From Akkermansia muciniphila (GTDB lineage: Bacteria > Verrucomicrobiota > Verrucomicrobiia > Opitutales > Opitutaceae), in contig CAMCZZ010000024.1 in NCBI GenBank assembly GCA_945888375.1, positions 1 through 39,888 of the forward strand: 39,888 bases of DNA, in the 5' to 3' direction. This document shows positions 23,432 to 39,368 of the stretch, one piece after another (the stretch's first letter is position 1; each line of letters begins with the position of its first letter). The notes under the pieces are model-generated. The model ran no database searches. It saw only the letters and a program-made list of their open reading frames with translations, and was not told the DNA's origin. Made by a program: the position numbers and the translations under genes.

Positions 23432-24601
23432 CTAGGTGATGCGGCGGGCGGCGGCCTGGGCTTTGAGGCAGAGTTCGGCGGCCTTGAAGGTGTGGGCCTG
23501 GGTCATGGCGTTTTCGGTGCGTTGGAGGCAGTCGAGCACGAGTTGTCCGAAGTAGGGGAAGCCGACTTTGCCGGCGACCTGGAGGTGTTGCTCACCTTTT
23601 TCATCCACGATGTAAACGTGGTCGCCGGAGCGGTCGCGGCCGACGTCGATGTATTTGCGCAGCTCGATGGTGCCTTTGGTGCCGAGGATCATGGTGCGGC
23701 CGTCGCCCCAGATGGGCAGGCCCTTGGGGGTGAACCAGTCCACGCGGACATAGTTGCTGGCGCCGTTGTTGCCCAAGAGGGAGGCCTCGCCGAAGTCCTC
23801 GAGTTCGGGGAAGTCGGGGTTGGCGTAGTTGGCGACGGCGGCCTGGGTGATGGTGGCGTCGGTGGCGCCGGAGAAAGTGAGAAACTGCTCGAACTGGTGG
23901 CTGCCGATATCGCAGAGGATGCCGCCGTATTTTTCGCGTTCGAAAAACCACTTGGGCCGCGAGGGGGCGTTGAGGCGGTGCGGGCCGAGGCCGATGACCT
24001 GGAGGACGCGACCGATGGCGCCGTCCTGGATGAGCTGGGTGGCGAACATGGCCGATTCGACGTGGAGGCGTTCGCTGTAATAGACGGCGTATTTGCGGCC
24101 GGTGCGGGCGACGACTTCGCGGGCCTGGGCGAGTTGGTCGAGGGTGGTGAAGGGGGCCTTGTCGGTGAAGTAGTCCTTTCCTGCCTCCATGACGCGGCAG
24201 CCGAGGGGGCCGCGGAGGTTGGTGACGGCGGCGGCGGCGACGAGGCGCACTTCGGGGTCGTTCAGGATCTCGTCGAGGGAGCGGGCAGCGCGGGTGCCGG
24301 GGAAGCTGGCGAGGAATTTTTCAACGCGTTTGGGGTCGGGATCGTAAACCCACTTGAGGGTGGCGCCGGCCTCGGTGAGGCCGTTGCACTGGCCATAGAT
24401 GTGGCCGTGGTCGAGGTGGGCGGCGGCGAAGACGAACTCGCCGGGTTTGACGACGGGGCGGGGTTTGCCCTTGGGGGCGTAGTTCATGCCGTCGGCGGCG
24501 GAGGCGGCGGGCGGGGTCTGGGCCCAGGCGGCCGGGGTGAGGAGGGCAGGCGCGGCGGCGGCGGCGAGGGCGGAGCGGGTGAGGAATTGGCGGCGTTTCA
24601 T
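23432..24601 (-). CDS. Tat-exported Gfo/Idh/MocA-like protein 2, divergent active site
   Basis: This 389-aa protein begins with a Tat-type signal (MKRRQFLTRS, then an Ala-rich stretch and AWA cleavage region). The overall plan is that of Gfo/Idh/MocA, with KWVYDPDPKRVEKF and DIGSHQFEQFLTF. Two hallmarks are changed: where the Rossmann GxGxxG is expected it has AAAHLDHGHIYG (residues 59-70), and the usual EKP is FTDKAPF (Lys148). It may bind the cofactor differently or have lost dehydrogenase activity in favour of another reaction. It is co-directional with oxidoreductase 1, 62 bp away, so the two could form a pair. Confidence 0.85.
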   Translation of the reverse strand: MKRRQFLTRSALAAAAAPALLTPAAWAQTPPAASAADGMNYAPKGKPRPVVKPGEFVFAAAHLDHGHIYGQCNGLTEAGATLKWVYDPDPKRVEKFLASFPGTRAARSLDEILNDPEVRLVAAAAVTNLRGPLGCRVMEAGKDYFTDKAPFTTLDQLAQAREVVARTGRKYAVYYSERLHVESAMFATQLIQDGAIGRVLQVIGLGPHRLNAPSRPKWFFEREKYGGILCDIGSHQFEQFLTFSGATDATITQAAVANYANPDFPELEDFGEASLLGNNGASNYVRVDWFTPKGLPIWGDGRTMILGTKGTIELRKYIDVGRDRSGDHVYIVDEKGEQHLQVAGKVGFPYFGQLVLDCLQRTENAMTQAHTFKAAELCLKAQAAARRIT

Positions 24602-24791: not shown

Positions 24792-26024
24792 TTAGGATTG
24801 CGCGGCTGGAGCGGGTTTGGCGGCGCGGCGGGAGACGAAGTAAAGGGCGGTAAAAATCACGGTGAGGACGACGGGCAGGATGGCGACCTTGCCGAGGGCC
24901 TCGAGGCCAGCGGCGGATTGGATGGCGGCGAGGGCGTCGGCGGCGGGGGCGGCGCCCTCGGGGGTGCGGGCGGCGATGCCTTGGTCATACCATTTCCCGA
25001 TGATGGGGAGGACGAAACTGACGGAGAGCATACCTGCGCCACCGATGATGGCCATGCCGAGGGCGCCGGTCTTGGGGTAGTTTTCCGCGACGTAGCCGAC
25101 CATGGTGGGCCAGAAGAAGCAGACGCCGAAGGCAAAGATGGTGGCGGCGGCGAAGAGCATGTTGCCGCTGGCGTGGCTCATGGCGTAGAGGCCGAGGGTG
25201 GAGAGCACGGCGCTCATAAGGAGCATGCCGGCGGGGGAGAGCTTGTGAACGAAGGGACCGGCGAACATGCGGCCGACGGCCATGATACCGTTGATCCAGA
25301 CAAGCACGAGGATGCCCGAGACGCCGGCATGGGAGAGGATGTTGGGAATCCACTGACCGGAGCCAAGCTCGGTGGCGGCGGTGAGCAGCATGCAGCAGAC
25401 CATCAGGAGGAAGCCGGGGGCGAGGCAGGCGGCGAACATGGAGCCAGTGGACTCACCGCGCTGAACACGCTCGGTCTTGGGCAGGGATTGGCCGAAAAAC
25501 AGGATGCCGTAGGCGATGGCAGGAAGAAGCATCGTGGCGAACTGGGCCTGCCAGCCGAGACCGAGTTTACCGAAAAGAAACGCGAGCAGGCCGCCGATCA
25601 CGATGCCGCCGGGGAACCAGACGTGGAAGTGGTTGAGCTTGGTGGTCTGGTCCTTCGGGTAGAGGGTGGTGACAAGGGGATTGCACGCGGCCTCCACGGA
25701 GCCGTTGGCGATGCCAAAAAGGAGGGTGCCGGTGAAAAGACTCCAGAAATCCCACGCGAAGATGGTGAGAAGAACGCCGGCGATGTGGCCGAAGAAGGCG
25801 ACGCCAAGAATGCGTTTGAAGCCGAGGCTGTCCACGAGGGGGCCGCCGAACATCATGGCGAGGGTGAAGCCCCAGAAGGCGGTGCCGTTGACCCAGCCCA
25901 CTTGTTCGTTGGAGAGGTTGAACTGGGCGGCCCAGTCGCCGGTGGCGCCGCCACGAAGGGCGAAGCTCATGGCGGTGACGATAAGGGCGAGGCAGCTGGC
26001 GCGGAAGAGGCGGGCGGGGTTCAT
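24792..26024 (-). CDS. MFS transporter, FucP-like sugar permease
   Basis: This 410-aa protein has twelve hydrophobic segments in the MFS pattern, with a long loop near the centre (GQSLPKTERVQRGESTG). The N-terminal half has GWVNGTAFWGFTLAMMFGGPLVDSLGFKRI, an MFS loop 2-3 motif with a changed arginine pattern. FGIANGSVEAACNPLVTTLYP resembles the fucose/glucose permease subgroup. It likely imports the sugar product of the surrounding secreted enzymes. The leader upstream of the start at 26024 carries an 11-G tract (an 11-C tract on the coding strand). Confidence 0.88.
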   Translation of the reverse strand: MNPARLFRASCLALIVTAMSFALRGGATGDWAAQFNLSNEQVGWVNGTAFWGFTLAMMFGGPLVDSLGFKRILGVAFFGHIAGVLLTIFAWDFWSLFTGTLLFGIANGSVEAACNPLVTTLYPKDQTTKLNHFHVWFPGGIVIGGLLAFLFGKLGLGWQAQFATMLLPAIAYGILFFGQSLPKTERVQRGESTGSMFAACLAPGFLLMVCCMLLTAATELGSGQWIPNILSHAGVSGILVLVWINGIMAVGRMFAGPFVHKLSPAGMLLMSAVLSTLGLYAMSHASGNMLFAAATIFAFGVCFFWPTMVGYVAENYPKTGALGMAIIGGAGMLSVSFVLPIIGKWYDQGIAARTPEGAAPAADALAAIQSAAGLEALGKVAILPVVLTVIFTALYFVSRRAAKPAPAAQS

Positions 26025-26139: not shown

Positions 26140-26997
26140 TTACCGCCGTATGAGAATACCGTGAAAGGTAAGCGGTTTATCCAGAGCAGGGAGAAGGGCG
26201 AATCCGACCCCCGGGAGGCGGCCGGCGAGCTCAGCGAGCTCTTCAGGAGCAAGAAGGAAGGCGGCGGTGGAAAGGGCGTCGGCCGAGGCGGCATCGGGAG
26301 CCAAGGCCCAAGTGCGAAGTGGGCAGTCCCGAGCTGGATGTCCGTCGCGCGGGTCGAGGATGTGCGCGCCCTGGACGGCGAAGCCGGAGGCGCCGAGGCC
26401 GGCGCGGCGGAGGGGGAGGCAGGCGGTGTTTTCGGTGTCGCCCAGGCCGACGAGCCAAGGTTGGTCGGGCGCGGGGCCGTCGAGGGCGAGCAGGCTGCTG
26501 CCGCCGCCGGCCATCAGCAGGGCGGAAGGGATTTCCCACTCGTCGAGAAGCTCGCCCAGACGATCGAGAGCGTAGCCCTTGCCGATGGCGCCGAGGTCGA
26601 GCGAGACGGGGGCGTCCAGCACGCGGGCGAGGGGGCAGGCGGGGTCGAGGAGAAGGCGACCGCGGACAGGCGGCGCGGAAGGTTTGGAGGTGCCGCGACG
26701 GTGCTGGTCCAGGGCGGCGCCGAGGGTGGGGTCAAAGGCGCCGCCGGTCAGGGCGTGGAGGTCAAGGGCGAGGCGGAGGCAGGCGGCGGTGTCGGGCGCG
26801 AGGGCGAGGGTGTCGCCGGGGGCGAGGCGGGAGAGGGCGGAGATCTCGCTGGCGGGGTCGTGGCGGTTGAGAAGGGTCTCGAGGCGATCTAGGCGTTGCC
26901 AGCACTCGGCGGCGGCGCGGGCGGCGTAGCCGCCATCGGGGTGGACGAGGCGTAGCTCGAAGCTGGTGGCCATCGCGTTATGGGCAAAGAGATGCAT
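26140..26997 (-). CDS. apbE: ApbE-family FAD:protein FMN transferase
   Basis: ApbE attaches FMN to Ser/Thr of target proteins using FAD and Mg2+. The 285-aa protein has the family marks NRHDPASEISALS (residues 44-56), GGAFDPTLGAAL, LDLGAIGKGYALDRL (133-147), the AGGG segment MAGGGSS, HILDPRDGHPA (212-222), and the metal/active segment APDAASADALSTAAFLL (Asp240, Ser243/Thr244). It lacks a visible signal peptide or lipobox. The ATG at 26997 precedes the family start NAMATSFELRL and lies 13 bp after the preceding stop. Its flavoprotein target is not obvious in the window. Confidence 0.9.
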   Translation of the reverse strand: MHLFAHNAMATSFELRLVHPDGGYAARAAAECWQRLDRLETLLNRHDPASEISALSRLAPGDTLALAPDTAACLRLALDLHALTGGAFDPTLGAALDQHRRGTSKPSAPPVRGRLLLDPACPLARVLDAPVSLDLGAIGKGYALDRLGELLDEWEIPSALLMAGGGSSLLALDGPAPDQPWLVGLGDTENTACLPLRRAGLGASGFAVQGAHILDPRDGHPARDCPLRTWALAPDAASADALSTAAFLLAPEELAELAGRLPGVGFALLPALDKPLTFHGILIRR

Positions 26998-27010
26998 GGC
27001 GGTGGCAGTT

Positions 27011-28543
27011 TCAGGGACCGGGTAAGAGAATAACCACCGGGAATTCGGCGCGTAGGCCGAGAAAGTCGGCCCGCCATACGTGTGGTCCGGGAGGCGGAGG
27101 CAGGGCCGCCGGGTCATGGGCGCGGGCGGAGCCGGTGAGGAAGATGACGTCGGGCGCGGGGGCAGAGCGGGCTGCGGGTGGCGCGGGGTAATAACCGGTG
27201 CGAGGGTAGGTGCGTAGATACCAAGGGAGCGGCCAGTAATCTTCACCGTAAACGTGGATAACGGGGGCGTCGCGGCCGGCGAGGGCGGCGGCGAGGCGGT
27301 CGGGGAGTGCCTCGAGGTCGGGGGAGCTGGGGGAGTAGGCGAGCGGGTTGGCTGGGTCCACGGGGAAGCGGGCGACGAGAGCGCGGGTTTCGGCGAGTAG
27401 AGCGGCCGCAAGGGCCAAGGCGGCGATAGGGGCGAGGACGGGGTAGAGTCGGCGAGGGAGGGCGGCGGGGGCGAGCCCTGCGACGAGGGCGGCGGGGAGG
27501 AGAAACTGGAGCGCGAGCCAGGGGGTTTTATAAGGAATTAAAGCATACAGAAGGGCGAGGGCAGCGGCGTGGAGGGCGAGCCACCAAGCGAGGGGGCGGG
27601 CGGCGCGGGTGCGCCAAGCGAGCATGGCGCCGGTGGTGTAGGCGGCGGCGAGGGTCCAGCCGGTCCAAGGGAGGGTGCGGAGGTTGGTGCGGAGATACCA
27701 GTCGGCGTAGGCGAGGAAGGGTTTTTCGTGGCCCTGGCCAGTGGCGCGGTCGGTGGCGAGGAAGAGGGCGCGAAGGGCGTCGAGGGGACCGGAGGGGTTT
27801 TGGCCAAAACCGGAAAAGAGCAGGCCGGCGGTGACGAGGGAGACGGCGCAGGCGGGGAGGAGGTGGCGCGGGGCGAGGACGGAGCGGAGCGGGAAGGCGT
27901 CAGCGGCGGGGCGGGTGAGGAGGACGACGACGGTGGCGAAGGCGGCGGCGGCGAGGGTAAGGACGACGGTGGCTTTGGTGGCGAGGAGAAGGCCGAGGAG
28001 GACGCCGGCGAGCAGGGCGCGGGGGAGAGTCGGGGAGGCGAGGTGGCGGCGGGTGGCGAGCAGGAGAGCGAGGGAGAGGAGGAGGAAGAGGGACTCGTGG
28101 ATGAAGATGCCGCCGTAGTAAACGAAGGGGGCGGCGAGGGTGAGCCACAAGAGACTCCAGCCAAGGGCGGAGGCGGGGAGGGCGGGGGCGAGGAGGGGAA
28201 CAAGCAGGAGGAGCCCGGCGGAGGCGAGGGCGGGGAGAAGGCGCAGATGCCAGGCCTTGAGGTCGGCATGGGTGTCGATGCCGAGGGCGGCGACGAGGGG
28301 GCGGGCGGCGAACAGGAGGACGGGGCCGTGGCGGTCCACGGGGTCGTAGCGGTAGGGCTCGCCGGCGAGGAGGTCGCCGAGGAGGCGGGCGTTTACGGCT
28401 TCGTCGGTGTGGAGGGGGCGGGGTTCGGGGCCGGGGGAGAGGCGGAGGAAGAGGGCGATGGCGGCGAGCGCGAAGGCGAGCAGCCAGAGGGAGCGGCGGG
28501 AGCCGAGGCCGGAGAGTGGAGCGGAGGAGGACCGGGACGTCAC
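27011..28543 (-). CDS. Agl23-like (TIGR03663) multi-span membrane protein
   Basis: This 510-aa protein has a hydrophobic N-terminal segment, about ten further membrane segments and the loop HTDEAVNA (residues 45-52), which resembles the first-loop acidic motif of GT-C fold glycosyltransferases. FVYYGGIFIHESLF follows in the next loop. The pattern corresponds to the TIGR03663 family, named flippase activity-associated protein Agl23. Function is by analogy only: transfer or movement of lipid-linked sugar. A C-terminal soluble domain (VIHVYGEDYWPLPWYLRTYPRTGYYPA) follows the helices. It lies 13 bp upstream of apbE and is likely co-transcribed. Confidence 0.8.
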   Translation of the reverse strand: MTSRSSSAPLSGLGSRRSLWLLAFALAAIALFLRLSPGPEPRPLHTDEAVNARLLGDLLAGEPYRYDPVDRHGPVLLFAARPLVAALGIDTHADLKAWHLRLLPALASAGLLLLVPLLAPALPASALGWSLLWLTLAAPFVYYGGIFIHESLFLLLSLALLLATRRHLASPTLPRALLAGVLLGLLLATKATVVLTLAAAAFATVVVLLTRPAADAFPLRSVLAPRHLLPACAVSLVTAGLLFSGFGQNPSGPLDALRALFLATDRATGQGHEKPFLAYADWYLRTNLRTLPWTGWTLAAAYTTGAMLAWRTRAARPLAWWLALHAAALALLYALIPYKTPWLALQFLLPAALVAGLAPAALPRRLYPVLAPIAALALAAALLAETRALVARFPVDPANPLAYSPSSPDLEALPDRLAAALAGRDAPVIHVYGEDYWPLPWYLRTYPRTGYYPAPPAARSAPAPDVIFLTGSARAHDPAALPPPPGPHVWRADFLGLRAEFPVVILLPGP

Positions 28544-28695: not shown

Positions 28696-29373
28696 TTACG
28701 GGGTCCCGTGGACTTCGACCTCGATGTAGTGGTTCATGGCGGAGGTGGTGTTACCGCCGCTGTAGAGGCGGACGTAGCGGGCGCTTTGGCCTTTGGCGTC
28801 GATGATGCGGCCTTCGTTGTTTTCTAAGTAGAGCGGGTCCTTGCCTTCGCCGAGGCCGAGCTCGTTGGCGGTGTCGCTGTTCCAGACGGTTTTGACGCCG
28901 GCAATAAAATCGGGGTCGTCGGAGAGTTGCACGACGACGTTTTTATAGACGCGACCTTGGGAATGGAAATGCCACACGGCGATGGCGTGGAGGGCGTGGG
29001 CGGCGCCGAGGTCGATCTGCACCCATTGTTTGCCGCGTCCGAGCTCCACGTAGGAACCCTCTTCGCCTTCTTTATCGCCGTCGGTGACGAGTTCGAGGTC
29101 GCCGAGCAGGGGCTCGTTATCGGACGAGGTGACGGGCTTGTTCAGGGCGAGGTTGACGGTGCCGGGGGGCACGTAGAAGGGGGCGCGGGGGCCGCTGCGA
29201 GTGGCTTCGAGGTTGGCGATTTTGATCGGCACGGGGGTGCCGACAAAGAGGGGGCGGGGGAGCTCGAGGCGGAGGGGGACTTTATCGGCGGGCGGGGCGT
29301 CGGCGGCGTGGGTCAAGGGGGCGACGGCGAGGGCGGCGGCGCTGGTGAGGGAGAGGAGACGAAAGAGGTGCAT
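28696..29373 (-). CDS. Secreted discoidin (F5/8 type C) domain protein
   Basis: This 225-aa protein has a Sec signal peptide (residues 1-23, ending THAAD). Residues about 70-222 form an F5/8 type C carbohydrate-binding domain: NLALNKPVTSSDNEPLLG, ELVTDGDKEGEEGSYVELG, WVQIDLGAAHALHAIAVWHFHS, then SARYVRLYSGGNTTSAMNHY and a terminal IEVEVHG. Such domains bind glycans or surfaces. It has no catalytic domain, so it may be a binding protein used with the enzymes around it. A terminator follows it. Confidence 0.88.
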   Translation of the reverse strand: MHLFRLLSLTSAAALAVAPLTHAADAPPADKVPLRLELPRPLFVGTPVPIKIANLEATRSGPRAPFYVPPGTVNLALNKPVTSSDNEPLLGDLELVTDGDKEGEEGSYVELGRGKQWVQIDLGAAHALHAIAVWHFHSQGRVYKNVVVQLSDDPDFIAGVKTVWNSDTANELGLGEGKDPLYLENNEGRIIDAKGQSARYVRLYSGGNTTSAMNHYIEVEVHGTP

Positions 29374-29513: not shown

Positions 29514-30845
29514 TTAGACTTCGAAGTCGGAGGGTTGGAAGGTGATGCGGGTGTTGGTCTCGACGGCTTCGATGGCGCGGTAGATGGTCATCTCGCTGCG
29601 GAGGGCTTCGTCGGCGGGGCAGTTGAGTTTGGCCTGGCCTTTCACTGCGGCGAAGAAGTTTTCGAGGTGGGGTTGGTGGATGGCTTTATTTAGAACGATG
29701 GGGATATCGTAGGCGGCCAAGGCGGCGGTCTCGCGGGCGTCCACTTGGGTGTTGGATGCGGGGGCCGGGGGCGGGGCGGCTTGGGCGGAAAGGAAGTTGC
29801 GGCGGACGAGGTCTTCCCAGGACGGCGCGGCGGCTTCGCGGTAAACGGCAGTGAGGCGGGGGTTTTCGGAGATTTTCAGGGTGCCTTGGTCGCCCATGAA
29901 GGTCTCGAAGTAGCCGCCGCCGGAGCTGGTGGTGGTCTGGACTTGGTAGAAAGCGCGAAGGGTGCCGGTGGGGAGCTTGTATTCGTAGATGAGCATGGCG
30001 TTGTCCATCCAGTCGCGGTCCTTGTAGTAATCGAGACCGCCGCTGCCGATGACGGTGGTGGGGAGGGCGTCGAGCATCCAGTTGAACATATCGATCTGAT
30101 GGGCGCCGAGGTCGGAGAGGGGGCCGCCGCCGTGCTTTTTGAACCAGCGCCAGTTGCGGAATTGGTGCATGGAGGGAAAGCCGTAGCGGGCGAGGGTCTC
30201 GGCGGGGATGACGTGTTTGGCGGGCCAGCCGAGGTCGGGGGCGACGGCGCGATTCCACTGGGCCTGGGCGCCGGTGACGCGGCCGAGGAGTTTGGCTTCT
30301 TGGAGGAGGCGGGAGCGGGCGAAGATGTAGCGGGGGTTGGATTTACGTTGGTGGCCGATTTGGAGGAGTTTGCCGGTCTCGCGCATGGTGCGAACCATAG
30401 AGCGGGCGCCCTCGACGGTGTTGGACATCATCTTCTCGCAGTAAACGTGTTTGCCGGCGCGGAGGGCGTCGTTGGTCACGGGGGCGTGCCAGTCGTCAGA
30501 CGTAGCGACGATGACGGCGTCGATGGTCGGGACCTTGGCGAGCATGTCCTGGTGGTTTTCGAAGGCCTGCACGTCGGGGTGGCCGGAGCGTTTGAGCAGG
30601 CGTTCGCCGTAAGTGCGGGCGTATTCCCAGATGTCGCAGACGGCGACGAAGCGGATGCCGGGGATCTTGAGCAGGGCCTCCATGAGGATACGGCCTTGGG
30701 CGCCTAGGCCGACGAGGGCGATGTTGAGGGTATCGCTCGGGGATTTTTGGGCGAGGAGAGCGCCGGGGCTGGAAAGGGCGAGGGAGAGGCCGGCGGCGGA
30801 GCTGGTTTGGAGGAAGCGGCGGCGGGTGAGAGAGGCGGGGGACAT
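29514..30845 (-). CDS. Tat-exported Gfo/Idh/MocA oxidoreductase 3
   Basis: This 443-aa oxidoreductase begins with a Tat signal (TRRRFLQTSSAAG, residues 7-19). The Rossmann motif is VGLGAQG (45-51), the catalytic lysine is Lys138 in YCEKMM, and SDLGAHQIDMFNWML is the histidine-bearing motif. SSGGGYFETFMGDQGTLKISENPR is a glycine-rich segment in the C-terminal sheet. It is the largest of the group with an extra loop around residues 370-390. Substrate unknown; it lies near the DoxX-like gene, 46 bp downstream of it. Confidence 0.92.
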   Translation of the reverse strand: MSPASLTRRRFLQTSSAAGLSLALSSPGALLAQKSPSDTLNIALVGLGAQGRILMEALLKIPGIRFVAVCDIWEYARTYGERLLKRSGHPDVQAFENHQDMLAKVPTIDAVIVATSDDWHAPVTNDALRAGKHVYCEKMMSNTVEGARSMVRTMRETGKLLQIGHQRKSNPRYIFARSRLLQEAKLLGRVTGAQAQWNRAVAPDLGWPAKHVIPAETLARYGFPSMHQFRNWRWFKKHGGGPLSDLGAHQIDMFNWMLDALPTTVIGSGGLDYYKDRDWMDNAMLIYEYKLPTGTLRAFYQVQTTTSSGGGYFETFMGDQGTLKISENPRLTAVYREAAAPSWEDLVRRNFLSAQAAPPPAPASNTQVDARETAALAAYDIPIVLNKAIHQPHLENFFAAVKGQAKLNCPADEALRSEMTIYRAIEAVETNTRITFQPSDFEV

Positions 30846-30891: not shown

Positions 30892-31437
30892 TCAGGTGCG
30901 GGTGAGGGTGAAGCGGTTGTGGGGGCGGAGAACGAGGGCGAGAGCGCAGAGGCCGACGTGGATGGCGAGCCAGGCGATGCCGGAGTCTTGTTTAATGAGA
31001 ATCAGCCCGACGGTGAGGGAGGTGTAGAGCAGGCCCATGGCGAGCAGAGTCCAGCGGGTGCAAACCCCAAGGAGGAGCAGCAGGCCGAGGAGTAGGAGGG
31101 CTGGGCCAAGGATGGAATAGAAGGGGGTGGTGAGGAAGGCGGGGAGGAGGGGCTCGCTGGAGAACTGGGTTTTGAGAGTCTCCGGCAGGGCTTGATAGTA
31201 GTCAGCCGCATACACTTTTTGTTTCACTTCAATCATGGCGCCGGAGATGTCGGGCTGGCCATCAGCGTCGAGGAGGGGTTCCTGGGTGACGCGGGTGCCG
31301 GCGTATTTTTCGAGGCCGGCGACGAGGGCCCGCCCGGCCAGCCAGACGCGGAGGAGGAGGAAGGCGAAGGTGCGATCCCAGTCGGTGGCGGGGCGGGCGG
31401 AGGAGGACGGGGCGGTGGAGGCGGCGGGTTGGCTCAT
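30892..31437 (-). CDS. DoxX-like membrane protein
   Basis: This 181-aa protein has about four hydrophobic segments. After a disordered N-terminus, FAFLLLRVWLAGRALVAGLEKY matches the DoxX/DoxD first helix, and a long periplasmic or cytoplasmic loop follows. The C-terminal half contains PFYSILGPALLLLGLLLLLGVCTRW and SLTVGLILIKQ, as in DoxX-type four-helix proteins. DoxD/DoxX in archaea form thiosulfate:quinone oxidoreductase; the role here is not known, but a quinone link is possible. It overlaps none of its neighbours and sits 1 bp after the fusion enzyme gene. Confidence 0.8.
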   Translation of the reverse strand: MSQPAASTAPSSSARPATDWDRTFAFLLLRVWLAGRALVAGLEKYAGTRVTQEPLLDADGQPDISGAMIEVKQKVYAADYYQALPETLKTQFSSEPLLPAFLTTPFYSILGPALLLLGLLLLLGVCTRWTLLAMGLLYTSLTVGLILIKQDSGIAWLAIHVGLCALALVLRPHNRFTLTRT

Positions 31438-31438
31438 G

Positions 31439-32962
31439 TTATTCGATGACGAGGTTACGGAAGGACACGGGGGCTCCGTGGTCTTGGAAGCCGAGGCGGC
31501 CGGTCTGGGGGAGGGTGGCGATGGCTTTTTTGAATTTGTTGGGGGTGCCGTCGGGGTTTAGGCCGGGGGTGGTCCACTCTTCGAGCTTGGCGGAGACGAC
31601 GCGTTCGCGGTCGATCCAGACTTCGATGTAGGTGCCGATGGTGCGCACGGTGAGCTGGTGCCAGGCATCGGGTTGGATGGTGCGCTGGCGGGTGGGCGGA
31701 AGGAGGTCAAAGAGGGCGCCGACGACGTGGGCGGGGTTGGGGGCCTCGCCTTGGAGTAGCTGGACCTCGAGTGAGTTTTGCACGGGGTCGGCGAGGTCGG
31801 AGGTGCGGAGGAAGACACCGCTATTGCCGCCGGCGGGGAGGCGAAATTCACAGTTCAGGGTGAAGTCGCCGTGGAGGGCGCGGGTGAAGAGGTAGCCGCC
31901 CTTGCCGGAGGAGGAGAGGACGCCGTCGGTGTAGGACCAGTTGGCGCGGTCGAACTCGGCGTTGGCGAGGTCGGGTGCGAGGAGAGGGCGCGGGGCGGGC
32001 CAGTTGGGGGCGGGGGAGGCGGGGGCGGGGAGGGAGGCGGGGGATGGGTCGAGGGTAAAGCCGGGGGGGGCGACTCGGCCGGCGAGGAGGTCGGGGAGGG
32101 GGGCGGCGAGGGCGGCGCGGAAGTAAGCGACGCAAGCGGAGAGTTCTTTTTCGAGCTGAGGGGTGTCGTGTTCGTATTCGAGGAAGGCGACGCCGGAGAA
32201 GCCCGCCTGGCGGAGGACGGCGAGCTGGCCGGCGAGGTCGCCGGCGCCGGTTCCGAAGGGGCGGTCGCGGCCTTTTTTGGCGGGTTCGTCCACGTCTTTG
32301 AGGTGGAGCTCGAGGACGCGGGGGGCGACGGCGCGGAGGGAGGCGACGGGGTCGAGGCCGTTGCGCAGCCAGTGGCCGGTGTCGGCGCAGAGGCCAATGT
32401 GGGGGCCGAAGGATTTGACGGTTTCGAGGGCGAAGGCGGGGTCAGCGTAGCGGGAGGGGGAGGGGTGGTTATGGAGCGCTACGCGGATGCCGGCGGCCGC
32501 GGCGAAGGGGGCGATCTGGGCGAGGGTGGCGGGGTCGATCTCGGTGGCGACGGTGCGGATGCCGAGGGTGCGGGCGAAGGCGAAGAGGCGTTGCCACTCG
32601 TCCACCGAGCCGGGGGAGAGCACGCCGTAGCTGACGGCGAGCAGGTCGCGCTCGGCGAGCCAGCCTTTGACGGTGGCGAGGGTGGCAGGGTCGAGGTCGT
32701 GGCCGAAGGAGCCTTGGAGGCCGCCGCCGAGGGTTTGCCCCTTGTAAACCTGAAGGTGGCGGAGGCCGAGGGCGCGGGCCTTGTCGAGGGTTTCGAGGAA
32801 GGTGAAACGGCGTAAGGTCCAGTGCTGGAGACCGAGCTCGATCTGCGCGGCGGGCGCCGGCTCAGACGCGGCGGAAGTGGGGGCCGCGGTGGCTGCGTGG
32901 CTGATCGATAGAACGGGAAGAAAGAGACCGCAGAGGGAAAAGATAAGGGCGGGAAGGCGCAT
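31439..32962 (-). CDS. Secreted TIM-barrel sugar isomerase/epimerase fused to DUF1080
   Basis: This 507-aa protein has a signal peptide (about residues 1-24). Residues 40-285 are an AP-endonuclease-2-type TIM barrel as in sugar phosphate isomerases/epimerases: GLQHWTLRRFTF, VALHNHP, LCADTGH (Asp194, His196), ELHLKDVD (His220) and LEYEHD (Glu262) are the apparent metal ligands. A Pro/Ala-rich linker (300-330) leads to a DUF1080 domain (3-keto-disaccharide hydrolase, jelly-roll): GDFTLNCEFRLPAGGNSGVFLR, then GRLGFQDHGAPVSFRNLVIE at the C-terminus. The two domains are usually separate proteins in glycoside clusters. The ATG at 32962 gives the signal peptide; the longer frame to 33106 is spurious. 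Confidence 0.85.
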   Translation of the reverse strand: MRLPALIFSLCGLFLPVLSISHAATAAPTSAASEPAPAAQIELGLQHWTLRRFTFLETLDKARALGLRHLQVYKGQTLGGGLQGSFGHDLDPATLATVKGWLAERDLLAVSYGVLSPGSVDEWQRLFAFARTLGIRTVATEIDPATLAQIAPFAAAAGIRVALHNHPSPSRYADPAFALETVKSFGPHIGLCADTGHWLRNGLDPVASLRAVAPRVLELHLKDVDEPAKKGRDRPFGTGAGDLAGQLAVLRQAGFSGVAFLEYEHDTPQLEKELSACVAYFRAALAAPLPDLLAGRVAPPGFTLDPSPASLPAPASPAPNWPAPRPLLAPDLANAEFDRANWSYTDGVLSSSGKGGYLFTRALHGDFTLNCEFRLPAGGNSGVFLRTSDLADPVQNSLEVQLLQGEAPNPAHVVGALFDLLPPTRQRTIQPDAWHQLTVRTIGTYIEVWIDRERVVSAKLEEWTTPGLNPDGTPNKFKKAIATLPQTGRLGFQDHGAPVSFRNLVIE

Positions 32963-33023: not shown

Positions 33024-34361
33024 TTAGAACACGCGGTAGGATTTGTGAATGAGGCGGGCGGCGTCGGGCTGGCCGACGCAGGCGACGGCGGCGGGGTCCC
33101 ATTCAAAGGGACGGCCTAGACGGATCGCGAGGTTGCCCAAAAGGGTGAACTCGGTGAGGTCGGCGGAGTGGTCCACAATGTTGGAGCCGGGGGCGGGGCC
33201 GCCCTTGATAGCCCGCAGCCATTCAAGGTAGGGGCTGCCCTTGGGGATGCGGGGGATGGAGCGCGCAGGACGTTTAAAAGAATCCATGCGGGACTCGGGC
33301 AGAAGGCGGGGGGAATCACTGTAATCTCCAGGAGAATACAAGATGCCGGCGTCGCCGACATAGTAGGTGCCGCTGCCGGGGAGTTTTTCCTCGGGGTCGA
33401 GGCCGGGTGGGCGGGCGGGGCGCCGGCCGCCGTCGGACCAGGTGAGCAGGACGGGGGCGAGGGCGCCGCGGGAGGGGAACTCCATGATGACGTGGGAGGA
33501 CTTGGGCGCGCAGATGGCGGTATTGCCCTCGCTCTCGGCGCGGACTTTGACAGGGCCGCGGAGGTTTAAGGCCCAGAAGGGGGCGTCGAGCACGTGGCAG
33601 CCCATGTCGCCCATGGCACCGCAGCCGTAGTCCCAGAAGCCGCGCCACTTGAAGGGGGCGACCTCGTTGACGAAGGGGCGGTAGGGGGCGACGCCGAGCC
33701 AGAGATTCCAATCGAGGGTATCGGGCGGGCGGATGTCAGGGGTGGGCCAGGCGACGCCTTGGGGCCAGACGGGGCGGTTGGTCCAGCAGTGGACCTCGCG
33801 GACCTGGCCGATGGCACCGGCTTCGATCCACTCCTTGATGAGTCGGCAGCCCTCGAAGGCGTGGCCCTGGTTGCCCATCTGGGTGACGACGCCGGCCTTG
33901 GCGGCGGCGGCTTTGAGGAGGCGGGCCTCGCCGATGGTCTGGGTGAGGGGTTTTTGAACGTAGACGTGTTTGCCGCGCTCCATCGCGGCGAGGGCGATGG
34001 GGGCGTGCATGTGGTCGGGGGTTGAGATGGTGACGGCGTCGATGCGGTCGTGGAGCTGGTCCAGCATGACGCGGTAATCGCGGAATCGTGGAACGTTCGG
34101 GAAAAGCTGAAAGGTTTGGGCGCCGCGGGCGAAATCGACGTCGCAGAGGCCGACGAGCTCCTCGCCGGAGCAGTTCATGGTGTCCTCGTGGCCCTTGCCG
34201 CCGACGCCTACGCAGGCGACGCGGACCTTCCGGCCGCGAACGAGGTTGCGGTAGGGGCTGTCGGGGAGGGTGTCGGCGCGTAGCCAGGGAGCGGTGACAA
34301 GGGCGGCGGTGGCGAGGCCGGCAGTGTGGAGAAAACGGCGGCGGGTGGGGCGAGAGGGCAT
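33024..34361 (-). CDS. Tat-exported Gfo/Idh/MocA oxidoreductase 4
   Basis: This 445-aa oxidoreductase starts with a Tat motif (TRRRFLHTAG, residues 6-15). The Rossmann motif is VGVGGKG (51-57), the catalytic lysine is Lys137 in YVQKPL, and GDMGCHVLDAPFWAL carries the conserved histidine. PDHMHAP matches the PDHxHA motif. The TTG at 34367 is rejected in favour of the ATG at 34361. It is 61 bp upstream of the isomerase-DUF1080 fusion gene and reads in the same direction, so the two are likely co-transcribed and may act in sequence. Confidence 0.92.
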   Translation of the reverse strand: MPSRPTRRRFLHTAGLATAALVTAPWLRADTLPDSPYRNLVRGRKVRVACVGVGGKGHEDTMNCSGEELVGLCDVDFARGAQTFQLFPNVPRFRDYRVMLDQLHDRIDAVTISTPDHMHAPIALAAMERGKHVYVQKPLTQTIGEARLLKAAAAKAGVVTQMGNQGHAFEGCRLIKEWIEAGAIGQVREVHCWTNRPVWPQGVAWPTPDIRPPDTLDWNLWLGVAPYRPFVNEVAPFKWRGFWDYGCGAMGDMGCHVLDAPFWALNLRGPVKVRAESEGNTAICAPKSSHVIMEFPSRGALAPVLLTWSDGGRRPARPPGLDPEEKLPGSGTYYVGDAGILYSPGDYSDSPRLLPESRMDSFKRPARSIPRIPKGSPYLEWLRAIKGGPAPGSNIVDHSADLTEFTLLGNLAIRLGRPFEWDPAAVACVGQPDAARLIHKSYRVF

Positions 34362-34389: not shown

Positions 34390-34424
34390 GGAAACCGGTG
34401 AAAAGGGCGGGTTATTTGGCGGGG
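34390..34424. repeat. 35-bp repeat, copy A (3' end of ThuA-HEAT gene)
   Basis: This 35-bp segment matches 38531-38565 with two mismatches. It spans the stop codon and the last codons of the ThuA-HEAT gene and the first bases of the spacer. In both copies the gene ends in Pro-Ala-Lys. Confidence 0.75.
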
Positions 34425-37126
34425 CCGGAGGCGACGCTGGCGAGGAGGTCGCGGGCTTTGTCCGACCAAAGCATTTTGCGGAGGGCGGCCAGGATGGCCT
34501 GACGCTCTTCGTCGCGCTGGAGGTGGGGCCAGAGGGCTTTGTAGTCGGAGACTTTGGCGTCGGCGGGGATACTCACGGCTTCACGGAGAAGGTCGAGGAG
34601 CGCTCCCTGGGCTAGGATGCGCTCGGCAGGAACTTCGAGGCGGGTAGTGGCGGCTTCTCGCAGGATGGCGCGAGTGGCGGGGTTGCGGGCGGAGGCGAGG
34701 GCACGCAGGACCTCGCGGCGGCGAGTAGAGTCGGGGTCGAGCAGTTCGGTCTCGACCGCGGCGAGGGCGGCAGGGGTGTCCATCGAGGCCAGGATGGCCA
34801 TGAGGGCTGCTCGGGGGGCGGCGGAGGAGCGGGGCAATCGCTCCACGACGAGGGTGGCGGCCGCAGTGGCGTCCGGCGTGGCGGCGAAAGTGGCGGAGAG
34901 CGCACGTTGGAGGGCTCGGCGCTCGGCGGGTTTTTCGGCGGAGAGTAGGAGATCGAGCAGGGCGGGCAGATCGGCTGGGCTGGCGAGGCTGCCGGCGGCG
35001 GAGAGGGCGGCGGAGCGCACGGTGGGTTCTTCGGCGCGGGTGAGTTCGAGCGCGATGGGGAAGGAGGGAAGGTGGCGGCGGCGGGCGAGGACGTCGAGCA
35101 GGGCGGCGCGGGCGGGGGGGGCTTGGGCGGGGTCGCGTAGCAGAGCGAGCAGGGCAGCATCAGCGGCGGGGTCGGACAGGGCGGCAAGGGCGTCACGGGC
35201 GGCCTCGGCGATGGGGGCGGAAGCGGTCAGACGGGTGGCGATGGCGGGGATGGCGGCGACGGTGCCAAGGCGGCCAAGGGCGGCGAGGGCGGCGGTAGCG
35301 AGGGCCTCGTCTTCGGCGGAGGCGGCGGTGGCGAGGAGTTTGCTGGAGACCGGGCTGAGGGGCGCGGGGAGGGCGTCTAGGAAGGCGGCGCGGGCCTCGG
35401 GGCTGGCGGCTGAGAGGGTGGTCCAAGCCTGGGTGAGAAATTTAGTGTCAGGGTGGGCGGCGGCAAGTTGGGCGGCCTGGAGGGCGGTGGCGGGGTCGGC
35501 TAACAAGGCTAGCAGGGTGGCGCGGGCGGCGGCGGGTTTGCTTTGCAGCTGGACGCGGGCCTGGGCGAGGTGGTGGTGGGAGGGGGCGTCGGCAGTGAGT
35601 TTTGGGGAAAGTTCGGCAAGGGCGAGGGCGGTCTCTGGTTCGGAAGGGCGGGCCTTGCGCAGGGCGGCGAGGGACTCGGGTGAATCGATGACGGCGAGGG
35701 CGCGGGCGGCGGCGGCGGTGACGGCGGGGTCGGCCTTGGTTTCGCGAGCGAGGCGGGCGAGGGCGGTGACGGCGGCGGGGGCGGCGCGTCGGCCGAGCGT
35801 ATCAATGATACTTATACGGACGGAGGGGGCGGTGGTTTTGGCCAGCGCGTCGAGCAGGACTTGGTCGGCGGCAGGCGTGAGGTGTTCCAAAAGCAGGACC
35901 AGCGCGAAGGGGGCGGTGTCAGGCTCGGCGAGGAGGGGGGCGAGCCGGGGCAGGTCGGCGTCGGTGAGGAGGCCGGGGAGAAGCCGGGCGGCGGCGGCGC
36001 GGGCGGCGGGGGTGGCGGAGGTGTCGAGGACGAGGGCCAGCAAGGGCTCGCGCAGGGTGGGGGCGGCGAGGGCGGCGCCGTGTTGGCGGAGGTAGGTTTC
36101 CAGGGTGATGTAGGCGGCGCGATCCTGGCCGTGGTTGTAAGTGCGGAGTTGGGTGGCGGCGGCGCGGGCGGCGTCGGGGTTGACGCGATTTTGCAGGGGG
36201 AGAGGGGTGGCGGGGGCCAGGGCGGGCTCAGGGTTGGGGGAGAGGCGGGCGGAGGGGACTGCGTCGAGGAGGAGGTCACCGAGGGCGTATTGGAGGCCGG
36301 CGAGGAAGTGGGCGAGGACCTCGGGTTGGTAATAGACGTCGGAATTATGGCCGAGGGAGGAGTAGAAGACGCGGCCGCCGGCGGGCTCTTGTTTTATCCA
36401 AGAGATGGGAAAGTCGTTGTCTTTGCGGTGGATTTTGTCGGCGGGGCGGGCGTTTTCGGGTTTGGTCATGTCGAGGCTGAGCACGACGCGGTGGGTGGCG
36501 CGGGAATAGGGGCCGCCGATCTGGTAAATCTCATCGCGGATCCAGAAGCCTTGGTTGCGGAAAGGGGCCACGAGGGGGTGGGCTGGGTCGTCCAGTTTTA
36601 TGGCGACGGTGTCGCCGCCGTTCCAAGGGTGGCCGTGAAAGACGCCGCCGATGAGGGCCTGGGCTTCGGGCCAAGTGGGGAAGTTGTCGGAGCCGGCGTG
36701 GATGCCGGCGATGCCGCCGCCGCGGGCGACGAGGGCGAGGAGGGCGGCGCGGTGGGCGGGGTTATCGAATTTGAGCTGGGTGGTGTTGTTGAAGACGACG
36801 GCGTCGAAACGGGCGAGGTTGGCGGGCTCGAAGGCGGCCATGTCTTCGGAGAGCTCGGCGGTGTAGGCACCGGTGGCGGCGCCGAGGCGGAGGAGGGCCT
36901 GGTTGCCGTGGGGGATGGAGTCGTGGACGAAGCCCTCGGTGCGGTAGAACACGAGCAGGCGACGGGGGCGGGCGGGGGTGGTGGGTGCGGCGGAGGGGAG
37001 GGCGGCCTCGATGCGGGCCTGTTCGCCGGGGTTGAGGGGTTTGAGGACTTTTTTGGCTGGTGCGGCGGAGAGGGGAGCGGCGGCGGCGAGCAGGAGGGCG
37101 GAGAGGAGGAGGGAAAGGGGGCGCAT
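34412..37126 (-). CDS. Secreted ThuA domain protein with HEAT-like repeats
   Basis: This 904-aa protein has a signal peptide (residues 1-22). A ThuA domain at about 56-284 is shown by LLVFYRTEGFVHDSI, FNNTTQLKF, GGGIAGIHAGSDNFPTWPE, FHGHPW and GRVFYSSLGH. ThuA belongs to the glutamine amidotransferase-like superfamily and is linked to trehalose and glycoside catabolism. Residues about 320-890 are a long Ala/Leu-rich array of HEAT-like helical repeats (many LAALA-type segments), probably a scaffold or binding surface. This ThuA-HEAT layout is often seen in Verrucomicrobia and Planctomycetes. It may process or tether a product of the neighbouring oxidoreductases; its reaction is unknown. Confidence 0.85.
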   Translation of the reverse strand: MRPLSLLLSALLLAAAAPLSAAPAKKVLKPLNPGEQARIEAALPSAAPTTPARPRRLLVFYRTEGFVHDSIPHGNQALLRLGAATGAYTAELSEDMAAFEPANLARFDAVVFNNTTQLKFDNPAHRAALLALVARGGGIAGIHAGSDNFPTWPEAQALIGGVFHGHPWNGGDTVAIKLDDPAHPLVAPFRNQGFWIRDEIYQIGGPYSRATHRVVLSLDMTKPENARPADKIHRKDNDFPISWIKQEPAGGRVFYSSLGHNSDVYYQPEVLAHFLAGLQYALGDLLLDAVPSARLSPNPEPALAPATPLPLQNRVNPDAARAAATQLRTYNHGQDRAAYITLETYLRQHGAALAAPTLREPLLALVLDTSATPAARAAAARLLPGLLTDADLPRLAPLLAEPDTAPFALVLLLEHLTPAADQVLLDALAKTTAPSVRISIIDTLGRRAAPAAVTALARLARETKADPAVTAAAARALAVIDSPESLAALRKARPSEPETALALAELSPKLTADAPSHHHLAQARVQLQSKPAAARATLLALLADPATALQAAQLAAAHPDTKFLTQAWTTLSAASPEARAAFLDALPAPLSPVSSKLLATAASAEDEALATAALAALGRLGTVAAIPAIATRLTASAPIAEAARDALAALSDPAADAALLALLRDPAQAPPARAALLDVLARRRHLPSFPIALELTRAEEPTVRSAALSAAGSLASPADLPALLDLLLSAEKPAERRALQRALSATFAATPDATAAATLVVERLPRSSAAPRAALMAILASMDTPAALAAVETELLDPDSTRRREVLRALASARNPATRAILREAATTRLEVPAERILAQGALLDLLREAVSIPADAKVSDYKALWPHLQRDEERQAILAALRKMLWSDKARDLLASVASGPAK

Positions 37127-37180: not shown

Positions 37181-38485
37181 TTAGACGAGGGTCCAGGGGC
37201 CGCGGTAGGCCCGGCAGAGGCGGGCGGAGGCGTCGGGGGCATCGAGGATGGTCTCGGTGGCCGGGTCCCAGCGCAGGGTGGAGCGGCCGGTGCGGAAGGC
37301 GATATTGGCGAGGTGGGCGACGGCGGCGGCGCGGTGGGAAGTTTCGGGGGGGCAGATGACGGGGCGGCCGAGGAGGATGCCGTCGATGAAGTTGCCGGTG
37401 TGCCGGGTGTTGCGGCGGTCGATGACGAAGCCTTGGGAGGGGATGGGGGCGCGGCGTAGGCGGGCGTCGCTGAATTCGGAGACGCCGCGATCGACGTGGG
37501 CCCAGCCCTGGTCGCCCTCGATGCGGAGGCCGCTGCGGAAGGCGCTGGACACCTGAATGACCTGGCCGCCGGCGTAGTGGGCGGCGAAGGCGTATTTATC
37601 GACGGTGTCGTAGAGCGGGTCTTCGTGGAAGGTGGCGGCGGCGTTGTGCAGGGCAACGGGCCCGGTGTGGTCCACCCCGAGGGCCCAAGAGGCGATGTCG
37701 TAGTGGTGGCCGATCCAATCGGAGAGTTGTCCGCCGGAATAGTCGCTGATCCAGCGGAAGTGGAAGTGGCAGCGCTCGTTGTAGTAGGGGGCATCGGGGG
37801 CGGGGCCGAGCCACATGTCGTAGTCGAGCTCCGCGGGGATGGTCTGGGGCGCGAGGGGGGCGGTCATCTTGGGGCGGTCGCCCTTGCCGCCGGGGAGGCC
37901 AACCTCGACTTTGCTGATGCGGCCGAAGAAGCCGTTGCGGGCGAGCTCGACCACGCGTTGGAACTCGGAGGAGGAGCGTTGCTGGCTGCCGACCTGGCAG
38001 ACGATGCCGGCCTGCTCGATGGCGCGGACCATGGCGCGGCCTTCGGGGATGGTGAGAGCGAAGGGTTTTTCGAGATAGATGTGAAGGCCGCGGCGGGCGG
38101 CGGAAATGACGGGGATGGCGTGCCAGTGGTCGGGCGTGGCGATAACGACGGCGTCGAGATCGCGGGCGAGGAGGTCGCGGAAATCGGTGGTTTGGTAAGC
38201 GGGGCCGGCGGACGAGGCGGAGGCGTAGTGTTTGTCCACGCGTTCGGCGGATTGGCGGAGATGCTTGCGGTCCACGTCGCACAGGGCGGTGACGCGGACT
38301 CGGGGGTGGTCGAGGAAACCGCCGAGCACGCCGCGGCCCTGACCACCGAGTCCTATAACCCCGACTTGAAGGAGGCCGGAGGGAGCGGGAGCGGAGACGT
38401 CGCGGCCGAGCACGCGGGAGGGAAGGATGAGGGGGGCGACTGCGGCGGCGGCGAGGGATTTTTGGAGAAAGGTGCGGCGGAGCAT
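37181..38485 (-). CDS. Tat-exported Gfo/Idh/MocA oxidoreductase 5
   Basis: This 434-aa oxidoreductase has a short Tat signal (MLRRTFLQKSLAAAA, twin arginines at 3-4). The Rossmann motif is IGLGGQG (44-50), the EKP catalytic motif is complete (YLEKPF, Lys140), and SDWIGHHYDIASWAL is the His-bearing motif. TPDHWHA matches the family. Its closest relative in the window is oxidoreductase 1, which shares VGSQQRS and the DYD.WLG segment. It lies 67 bp downstream of the DUF1080 gene and 54 bp upstream of the ThuA-HEAT gene, so this trio looks like one transcript. Confidence 0.92.
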   Translation of the reverse strand: MLRRTFLQKSLAAAAVAPLILPSRVLGRDVSAPAPSGLLQVGVIGLGGQGRGVLGGFLDHPRVRVTALCDVDRKHLRQSAERVDKHYASASSAGPAYQTTDFRDLLARDLDAVVIATPDHWHAIPVISAARRGLHIYLEKPFALTIPEGRAMVRAIEQAGIVCQVGSQQRSSSEFQRVVELARNGFFGRISKVEVGLPGGKGDRPKMTAPLAPQTIPAELDYDMWLGPAPDAPYYNERCHFHFRWISDYSGGQLSDWIGHHYDIASWALGVDHTGPVALHNAAATFHEDPLYDTVDKYAFAAHYAGGQVIQVSSAFRSGLRIEGDQGWAHVDRGVSEFSDARLRRAPIPSQGFVIDRRNTRHTGNFIDGILLGRPVICPPETSHRAAAVAHLANIAFRTGRSTLRWDPATETILDAPDASARLCRAYRGPWTLV

Positions 38486-38530: not shown

Positions 38531-38565
38531 GGAAAGCGGTGAAAAGGACGGGTTATTTGGCGGGG
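38531..38565. repeat. 35-bp repeat, copy B (3' end of DUF1080 gene)
   Basis: This is the second copy of the segment at 34390-34424, with 33 of 35 positions identical. It covers the stop codon and last codons of the DUF1080 gene. Confidence 0.75.
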
Positions 38566-39368
38566 AGTTCAGGAGTGGGAACAACCCAGATATTGCGGAA
38601 ACGGACGCGGTCGCCGTGGTCTTGGAGGCGAAGGGGGGCGGCGGGGGGATGCGCGGAGTAAACGGCGACTTTTTTCCAGGTGCTGAGGCCGTAGAACTCG
38701 GCGTTGTTTTGCACCACGACTCCATTCAGCACGACGGTGACGGCGGCGGGCTCGCGGAGTTTGCCCTCGGCGGAAAAGAGCGGGGCGTGGAAAAAGATGT
38801 CATAGGTGTTCCACTCGCCCGGAGGGCGCACGGCGTTGGCTAGCGGGGGGTGTTGCCCGTAGACGGCGCCCACATAGCCGTCGGCGTAGGTGGGGTTGTC
38901 GTGGTTGTCGAGAATCTGGATCTCGTAGCGATCCATGAGGAAGACACCGCTGTTGCCGCGACCCTGGCCGGAGCCTTTGACGGGAAGGGGGGCGCTCCAT
39001 TCGAGATGGAGATGGCAGGAGCCGAAGGACTGGCGGGTGATGAGGTTGCCGGCCTTGGGGGTGACTTCGAAGGTGCCATCGCGGACGAGCCAGGCGGGGT
39101 TTTGCCATGCGGACAGATCGGTGCCGTCGAAAAGGATGACGGCGCCGGTGGGCGGGATGGAGGCGGGAGCGAGGGCCTCGGCGGGCCGCGGCGTGGCGAG
39201 GGGCGGGACGGGGCGGGCGGGATCATGAACAGGCCAGCCGTCGGGGTTGATCGCTGGGGAAGGGGGCGTGGCTGGGGCGGGCTCGGCGGCGGAGGCGATA
39301 GGGGCGAGCCATGAAGCCAGGGCAAGGAGACTGGCGAGGGTGGCGAGATGGGAGAGGGGAATGCGCAT
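38553..39368 (-). CDS. Secreted DUF1080 (3-keto-disaccharide hydrolase) domain protein
   Basis: This 271-aa protein has a signal peptide (about residues 1-27). Residues about 75-265 form a DUF1080 jelly-roll: GAVILFDGTDLSAWQN (75-90), SFGSCHLHLEWSAP, RGNSGVFLMDRYEIQILDNHDN (137-158), PGEWNTYDIFFHAP and the terminal DHGDRVRFRNIWV. In the characterised route of gut Bacteroides (locus around BT2156-BT2160), DUF1080 proteins cleave 3-keto-glycosides made by Gfo/Idh/MocA enzymes. It leads the block of the oxidoreductase 5 and ThuA-HEAT genes, so it is probably the hydrolase for that set. Confidence 0.9.
   Translation of the reverse strand: MRIPLSHLATLASLLALASWLAPIASAAEPAPATPPSPAINPDGWPVHDPARPVPPLATPRPAEALAPASIPPTGAVILFDGTDLSAWQNPAWLVRDGTFEVTPKAGNLITRQSFGSCHLHLEWSAPLPVKGSGQGRGNSGVFLMDRYEIQILDNHDNPTYADGYVGAVYGQHPPLANAVRPPGEWNTYDIFFHAPLFSAEGKLREPAAVTVVLNGVVVQNNAEFYGLSTWKKVAVYSAHPPAAPLRLQDHGDRVRFRNIWVVPTPELPAK

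Follow-up and report, generated by a model that had tools for sequence, protein, structure and literature searches.

A secreted protein joining an AP-endonuclease-2-like barrel to a DUF1080 domain, probably two successive enzymes of oxidation-based sugar cleavage, recurs in several bacterial phyla

Both domain families considered here, and the pathway in which we place them, are already known. For Agrobacterium tumefaciens, the section of PMC10628242 that deals with phlorizin proposes oxidation, elimination, hydration and reduction in that order, and the same source describes AtOGE (PDB 8bvk) as a Mn-dependent O-glycoside beta-eliminase of this organism, with His132, Asp163 and His189 as Mn ligands and His134 as the catalytic residue; in the mutants that it reports, H134A is devoid of activity and H189A retains <0.1% of wild type. 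The DUF1080 family (PF06439), now named 3-keto-disaccharide hydrolase in Pfam, is tied to 3-keto-glycoside cleavage by genetics in the part of PMC9007349 concerned. The family is not uniform, since one characterised member is described as an endo-xanthanase in the corresponding part of PMC10881899. A DUF1080 enzyme of B. theta both eliminates and hydrates (PMC13273386; title of 8rr2), and its H275N variant is deficient in hydration (PMC13273386). Proteins with two DUF1080 domains are noted in a passage of PMC5352709 and DUF1080 domains on kinases in a passage of PMC11032199, neither passage mentioning a barrel. As far as we have seen, the oxidation-elimination-hydration-reduction route is known from separate enzymes, and among the open-licence literature matches listed (titles and abstract starts) we found no description of a fusion; InterPro may well list the pairing.

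We analysed a window, by which we mean the whole stretch of 39,888 nucleotides, that carries such a fusion (Table 1). An earlier note had described a single secreted polypeptide made of an AP-endonuclease-2-like barrel and a C-terminal DUF1080 domain. Its coordinates are exact: the minus-strand frame encodes 507 residues and has zero internal stops. Nor did the two domains go unrecognised, as that note had allowed they might, both profiles scoring far above the Pfam cut-offs (AP_endonuc_2, PF01261, residues 60-272, 79.2 bits with a cut-off of 31.1; 3keto-disac_hyd, PF06439, residues 339-506, 105.1 bits with a cut-off of 26.8). Judged by eye, the N-terminus, MRLPALIFSLCGLFLPVLSISHA..., resembles a Sec signal peptide, in agreement with secretion, and most of the 47 fusion rows discussed below show, again by eye, a signal or lipoprotein leader. 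The AlphaFold model of the whole fusion has a mean pLDDT of 82.5 (11-row alignment), and that of the barrel alone 97.5 (73-row alignment). In the fusion model pLDDT falls below 50 at residues 1-37 and 305-321 only; the low values at 305-321, within the linker, fit a loose tethering of the halves. The observation of one two-domain secreted protein is thus confirmed, and we regard the fusion as probably bifunctional, with two enzymes acting in succession in oxidation-based sugar cutting.

Table 1. Coordinates of the fused gene, its parts and the neighbouring genes in the window.
Feature	Position	Strand	Evidence or remark
Separate DUF1080 protein, another subfamily	38553-39368	minus	142.1 bits; DUF tree (a quick tree with long-branch warnings)
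Third Gfo/Idh oxidoreductase	37181-38485	minus	Tat-like leader by eye
ThuA + HEAT-repeat protein	34412-37126	minus	Pfam
Gfo/Idh oxidoreductase directly 5' of fusion, BT_2158-like, Tat-type leader	33024-34361	minus	NF058561, TIGR01409
Fused gene	31439-32962	minus	507 aa; stop codon 31439-31441
N-terminal signal peptide, ~residues 1-23	32894-32962	minus	Read by eye
Barrel domain, residues 40-289	32096-32845	minus	Pfam, structure comparison, alignment
Pro/Ala-rich linker, ~residues 290-324	31991-32095	minus	Low pLDDT; spacing between profile matches
DUF1080 domain, residues 325-507, with NSG, E399xQ401, Q493-D-H495-G	31442-31990	minus	Pfam, structure comparison, alignment
DoxX/MauE-like membrane protein	30892-31437	minus	Both Pfam matches below cut-off
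Second Gfo/Idh oxidoreductase, 3' of fusion, candidate 3-keto-sugar reductase	29514-30845	minus	Tat-type leader
F5/8 type C (discoidin-like) protein	28696-29373	minus	Pfam; recurring locus member
Frame without Pfam match	27011-28543	minus	Pfam
ApbE family (FMN transferase) protein	26140-27411	minus	Recurring locus member
MFS transporter	24792-26024	minus	Pfam; recurring locus member
Two further Gfo/Idh genes	23432-24601 and 21966-23369	minus	After MFS transporter

Full-length, stop-free homologues in a single ORF are present in at least 9 of 140 other related genomes (42-53% identity; up to 10 candidates per genome were scored and misses are possible), one of which has two. Some fused homologues lie on contigs of several megabases, and fused loci also occur under record titles without a MAG label (Opitutaceae bacterium EW11, L044; Ereboglobus sp. 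PH5-10, L073). The frameshift or misassembly of two genes that the earlier note had named as fatal to its reading is so improbable on this evidence as to be negligible, and we reject it. A scan of species genomes with the single fusion protein as query found no relative. Run with an alignment instead, with patterns derived from fusions, the scan gave 79 distinct loci from the best 80 of 158 matches, and in 44 of these 79 one ORF carries both domains. With patterns taken from fusions and just the best 80 matches kept, this proportion should not be read as a natural frequency. Adding the window and the loci of G059, G064 and G143 brings the fused frames to 48; residue counts below refer to 47, leaving aside L111, of whose barrel a contig edge leaves just the final 24 residues. 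By title, the hosts belong to Verrucomicrobiota, Planctomycetota, Calditrichota, Sumerlaeota and Lentisphaerota, with one Caldisericaceae-labelled MAG and one unassigned MAG. A wider phylum search, in which up to 5 candidates per genome were scored and misses are again possible, adds same-frame pairings in G195, G315, G180 and G240, recognised by our own profiles and, for three of the four, by Pfam. The homologues in related and species genomes also reject the idea that the fusion is peculiar to the window genome: it is real and common to several bacterial phyla.

In structure the barrel matches 3p6l (Foldseek E 1.5e-22; VIA-align Z 35.1, the VIA-align matches covering mostly the barrel half). 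The nearest PDB entries of both halves, 3p6l, 4kw2, 3imm and 3s5q, bear putative titles only, and we found no assigned activity for the fusion's barrel subfamily or for the shorter DUF1080 subfamily. A profile of 73 barrels aligns with AtOGE, and counting along the printed 8bvk alignment brings its His132, Asp163 and His189 onto His164, Asp194 and His220 of the fusion, and its catalytic His134 onto His166; AtOGE Glu233 lies outside the aligned range, and E262 is the presumptive fourth ligand. On this alignment the barrel's metal set consists of His164, Asp194 and His220, with Glu262 a probable further member. The ligand list of the earlier note agrees at Asp194, His220 and Glu262 but not at His196, residue 196 being Gly and the His residue 197. 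Across the fusions H164, H166, D194, H197, H220 and E262 are each kept in 47/47 and E141 in 46/47, and both His of the H-N-H motif are present in all 73 aligned barrels. Because the Mn ligands and catalytic His of AtOGE are present, we prefer to see in the barrel a beta-eliminase, that is, a lyase, rather than the sugar isomerase proposed in the earlier note. We hold it quite unlikely that the barrel epimerises or isomerises a 3-keto-sugar freed by a DUF1080 hydrolase or lyase, the scheme which that note implied: the Pfam family is broad and D-tagatose and D-psicose 3-epimerases are among the barrel's neighbours in fold (Z ~25), yet the three metal ligands and the catalytic His of AtOGE are conserved, and NCBIfam epimerase models match far below cut-off only.

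For contrast we took AtOGE-like proteins from three plasmid operons together with two AtHYD-like proteins from two of these operons, the latter being sugar phosphate isomerases beside Gfo/Idh that were assigned by operon position and length. The barrel profile scores 55.5, 54.1 and 48.8 bits with the three AtOGE-like proteins and 38.5 (partial sequence) and 29.4 bits with the two AtHYD-like ones. H-N-H occurs in the fusions and in the three AtOGE-like proteins, E-x-H at the same place in the two AtHYD-like proteins, and E-x-H may be a hydratase mark, to judge from these two sequences. Since C-glycoside eliminases too carry Glu at the His132 position, in the comparison given in PMC10628242, the contrast between E-x-H and H-N-H alone is no proof of a lyase.

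The C-terminal domain matches 3s5q and 3imm in structure (Foldseek/VIA-align), and also 8v31 and 8tda, titled 3-keto-2-hydroxy-glucal hydratase, and 8rr2/9fbe, an eliminase/hydratase. Where the title of a solved DUF1080 relative names an activity, it is that of a 2-hydroxy-3-keto-glucal hydratase or of an eliminase/hydratase. 3osd (BT2157) scores almost equal to 8tda and is probably the same protein. PDB entries 8tcd, 8tcr and 8tcs, which we take to be 3-keto-beta-glucopyranoside 1,2-lyases, carry no weight in our argument. Conservation in the fusions is high at S381 (46/47), G382 (47/47), R386 (47/47), E399 (45/47) and Q401 (42/47), and His495 of the QDHG motif is kept in 38/47. The Alistipes enzyme AL2 (8v31) carries the same QDHG, aligned with His495, and construct offsets suggest that this His corresponds to His275 of the B. 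theta enzyme. We think it very unlikely that DUF1080 is mainly a carbohydrate-binding or anchoring module by which the fusion brings one lyase to a polymer. The domain does resemble CBM66 (4b1m, E 1.8e-9), and no His is aligned at 495 in 9/47 fusions; against this stand the retention of R386, E399 and S381, the fact that the characterised relatives are enzymes, and a barrel-less relative that keeps the domain beside dehydrogenases.

The main rival to the barrel as lyase reverses the roles: DUF1080 would be the eliminase and the barrel a 2-hydroxy-3-keto-glucal hydratase like AtHYD and LgdB2, the fusion remaining a lyase-hydratase. Barrel hydratases are indeed known (AtHYD, 8ro4, and LgdB2), the DUF1080 eliminase/hydratase of B. 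theta is used on a 3-keto-alpha-glucoside (PMC13273386), and a same-genus relative with a DUF1080 domain, no barrel and a similar locus fits a DUF1080 domain that cleaves unaided. We nevertheless judge this reversal unlikely, given that the fusion barrel has H-N-H and the catalytic His of AtOGE and scores higher with AtOGE-like than with AtHYD-like proteins.

In the window the genes of the cluster all lie on the minus strand, with Gfo/Idh oxidoreductases on both sides of the fusion, and one base separates the fusion's stop codon from the ATG of the DoxX/MauE-like gene. A same-strand Gfo/Idh homologue lies within 6 kb in 46 of the 48 fusion loci, the window included; it is missing from L126, where the locus hardly extends beyond the fusion, and from L117, whose flank amounts to 7.2 kb on a single side. 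With 24 Gfo/Idh domains in 3.22 Mb of the window genome, about 0.1 would be expected by chance per such stretch. Within the same distance and on the same strand we found another DUF1080 gene in 19/48 loci and homologues of the F5/8C protein in 13/48, of ApbE in 7/48 and of the MFS transporter in 5/48, the window's own being counted for the last three. The F5/8C homologues near the fusion span several phyla, and the ApbE gene recurs beside the fusion along with the DoxX-like membrane protein. A tandem DUF1080-DUF1080 gene directly follows the fusion in planctomycete loci (L064:5156-6619, L071, L072, L074, L078). ThuA is fused to DUF1080 in Phycisphaerales/Phycisphaerae (L092:6825-8519, L094:7134-8615, L105:2-1597), which, together with the ThuA gene of the window cluster, suggests that ThuA takes part in the same chemistry as the fusion.

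The gene directly 5' of the fusion encodes a relative of the BT_2158 glycoside 3-dehydrogenase that is not a member by the NF058561 cut-off (394.6 bits over residues 6-422; cut-off 750), and its homologue stands directly 5' in 39/47 fusions. By a loose pattern that gives an upper figure, at most 38 of these 39 have a Tat-like leader. In the window the Tat signal model TIGR01409 (cut-off 16.7) passes for both flanking Gfo/Idh products, with 17.4 bits for the 5' gene and 23.8 bits for the 3' gene, which, along with the fusion leaders seen by eye, suggests that the pathway is active outside the cytoplasm.

One protein, two domains, a conserved AtOGE site, a gene cluster and a spread over several phyla are what we observe; what we infer is that each half is active, in which order the steps run, which class of substrate and which compartment are concerned, and whether tethering or channelling brings any gain. 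With moderate confidence we assign the fusion as a periplasmic lyase-hydratase for oxidised glycosides, in which the barrel would eliminate and DUF1080 hydrate. A Gfo/Idh enzyme of the operon, probably that encoded directly 5', would oxidise a glycoside at C3 of its glycosyl unit. In the barrel a divalent metal bound by His164, Asp194, His220 and Glu262, probably Mn2+, would then hold the 3-keto group, while His166 takes the C2 proton and the aglycone leaves by beta-elimination. The species passed between the sites would be 2-hydroxy-3-keto-glucal, because the barrel is read as a beta-eliminase; the tethered DUF1080 domain would hydrate it to the 3-keto-sugar, with His495 the likely acid/base, and a second Gfo/Idh enzyme, probably the one encoded 3', would reduce the 3-keto-sugar to free sugar. 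The net result of the fusion would be conversion of a 3-keto-glycoside to aglycone and 3-keto-sugar, the operon supplying oxidation and reduction. The split of labour between the halves may differ, given that in B. theta a single DUF1080 enzyme performs elimination as well as hydration (PMC13273386), and the lyase-hydratase pair is not obligatory, since relatives with one half exist.

The order of the domains varies among the 48 fused frames. It is barrel-DUF in 44, among them L086, which has an F5/8C domain in between; DUF-barrel in L091 and L117, which contig ends cut at the N-terminal and C-terminal sides, respectively; DUF-barrel-DUF in L069; and barrel-DUF-DUF in L126. L155, from the phylum search, has the order HEAT-barrel-DUF; Pfam checks covered L086 and the rarer orders. 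The linkers of the 44 barrel-DUF frames fall into two classes, with 44-51 residues between the two profile matches in 22 and 13-15 in 21, besides 220 in one. The window fusion, with 44, is in the first class, whose 22 frames are Verrucomicrobiota by title, by kinship or by being the window. The barrel tree requires 11 changes, at least 5 of them forced by well-supported branches, to accommodate the 50 fused rows; three long-branch rows, one of them fused, had been dropped beforehand (L106, the second copy of L017 and L080), and the L153 group sits on a long branch that joins the tree at the outgroup. AU tests of groups examined after an earlier tree had been seen reject one clade of fused rows, with p 1.06e-60 when 50 fused rows are set against 37 and p 5.7e-5 when a core set of 41 rows is set against 34, and with it a single fusion origin without later change.

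Loss accounts for part of this pattern: in G011, a species of the same genus as the window, the Gfo/Idh gene is followed by one that lacks a barrel but encodes a signal-like start, the linker of the fusion (AGRVPPAGFSTDV...GRGKDSARWP) and a DUF1080 domain. This gene, L158:7005-7793 and also L012, has a neighbourhood in L158 that resembles the window's and offers a natural single-domain control. By eye, L015 (G014, same genus) resembles it, and in L013, L083 and L084 what is left of the linker is shorter; L077:7758-8990, with a barrel and a linker remnant and no DUF1080 domain, looks by eye like the reciprocal loss. Both gain and loss of domains are likely, and the varied orders, the two linker classes and the rejection of one clade point to repeated fusion and domain loss. 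The fusion seems to have arisen more than once; because loss explains some of the single-domain relatives, the changes on the tree do not fix the number of fusion events. L117, L126 and the L153 group make the strongest case for separate events, L117 and L126 being single instances. Since relatives with one half keep the linker, the halves may be able to work apart.

It is reasonable that a barrel and DUF1080 should be joined if they handle a 3-keto-sugar one after the other, and the occurrence of the two middle steps in one natural chain provides independent evidence of successive action. A larger idea, which we offer tentatively and with more doubt than belief, is that evolution has repeatedly joined the middle enzymes of an oxidative (non-Koshland) pathway, so that one secreted chain would carry out net hydrolysis of 3-keto-glycosides and pass the reactive 2-hydroxy-3-keto-glucal between its sites before it escapes or reacts. 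For subfamilies of Verrucomicrobiota and Planctomycetota that so far lack an assignment the fusion suggests a function, and relatives that are fused, barrel-only or DUF1080-only lend themselves to asking whether tethering speeds the handover of an unstable intermediate. If the assignment is true, it would provide a one-protein tool to cleave 3-keto-glycosides.

The interpretation in the earlier note was borne out in part: it had both domains right and expected them as separate neighbouring genes elsewhere, whereas its isomerase reading gives way to that of a probable lyase, and the fusion is not peculiar to this gene. Genes for an AtOGE-like barrel and for DUF1080 lie at most 4 kb apart on Paracoccus and Palleronia plasmids, whose operons have an AtOGE-like lyase, DUF1080, a GMC dehydrogenase and more barrel proteins as separate genes (L151:5548-7266, L152:5575-10517). 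Of the described systems, AtOGE shares with the fusion a TIM barrel with matching Mn ligands and catalytic His and, in the operon as presented in PMC10628242, the company of a dehydrogenase and a Gfo oxidoreductase; it is, however, a separate protein of low sequence similarity to the fusion barrel, and its operon, in the same account, has two barrels (the eliminase and a putative hydratase) and the flavoenzyme GlycDH for the first step. The 5' gene of the fusion is like the BT_2158 glycoside 3-dehydrogenase family over residues 6-422, with a score under the family cut-off. The DUF1080 hydratases BT2 (8tda) and AL2, and 8rr2/9fbe, share the PF06439 fold, and AL2 the aligned QDHG, but they are separate, longer proteins, and 3imm and 3s5q, shorter entries whose titles assign no activity, lie nearer to the fused domain. 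The levoglucosan pathway of Bacillus smithii, LgdA-LgdB1-LgdB2-LgdC, shows the same order of oxidation, elimination, hydration and reduction, and in the portion of PMC7676230 that describes it the middle steps belong to LgdB1 and LgdB2, separate sugar-phosphate-isomerase-like proteins; there four enzymes act without a fusion and the bond cleaved is intramolecular, whereas in the window's protein the two middle steps would reside in a single chain.
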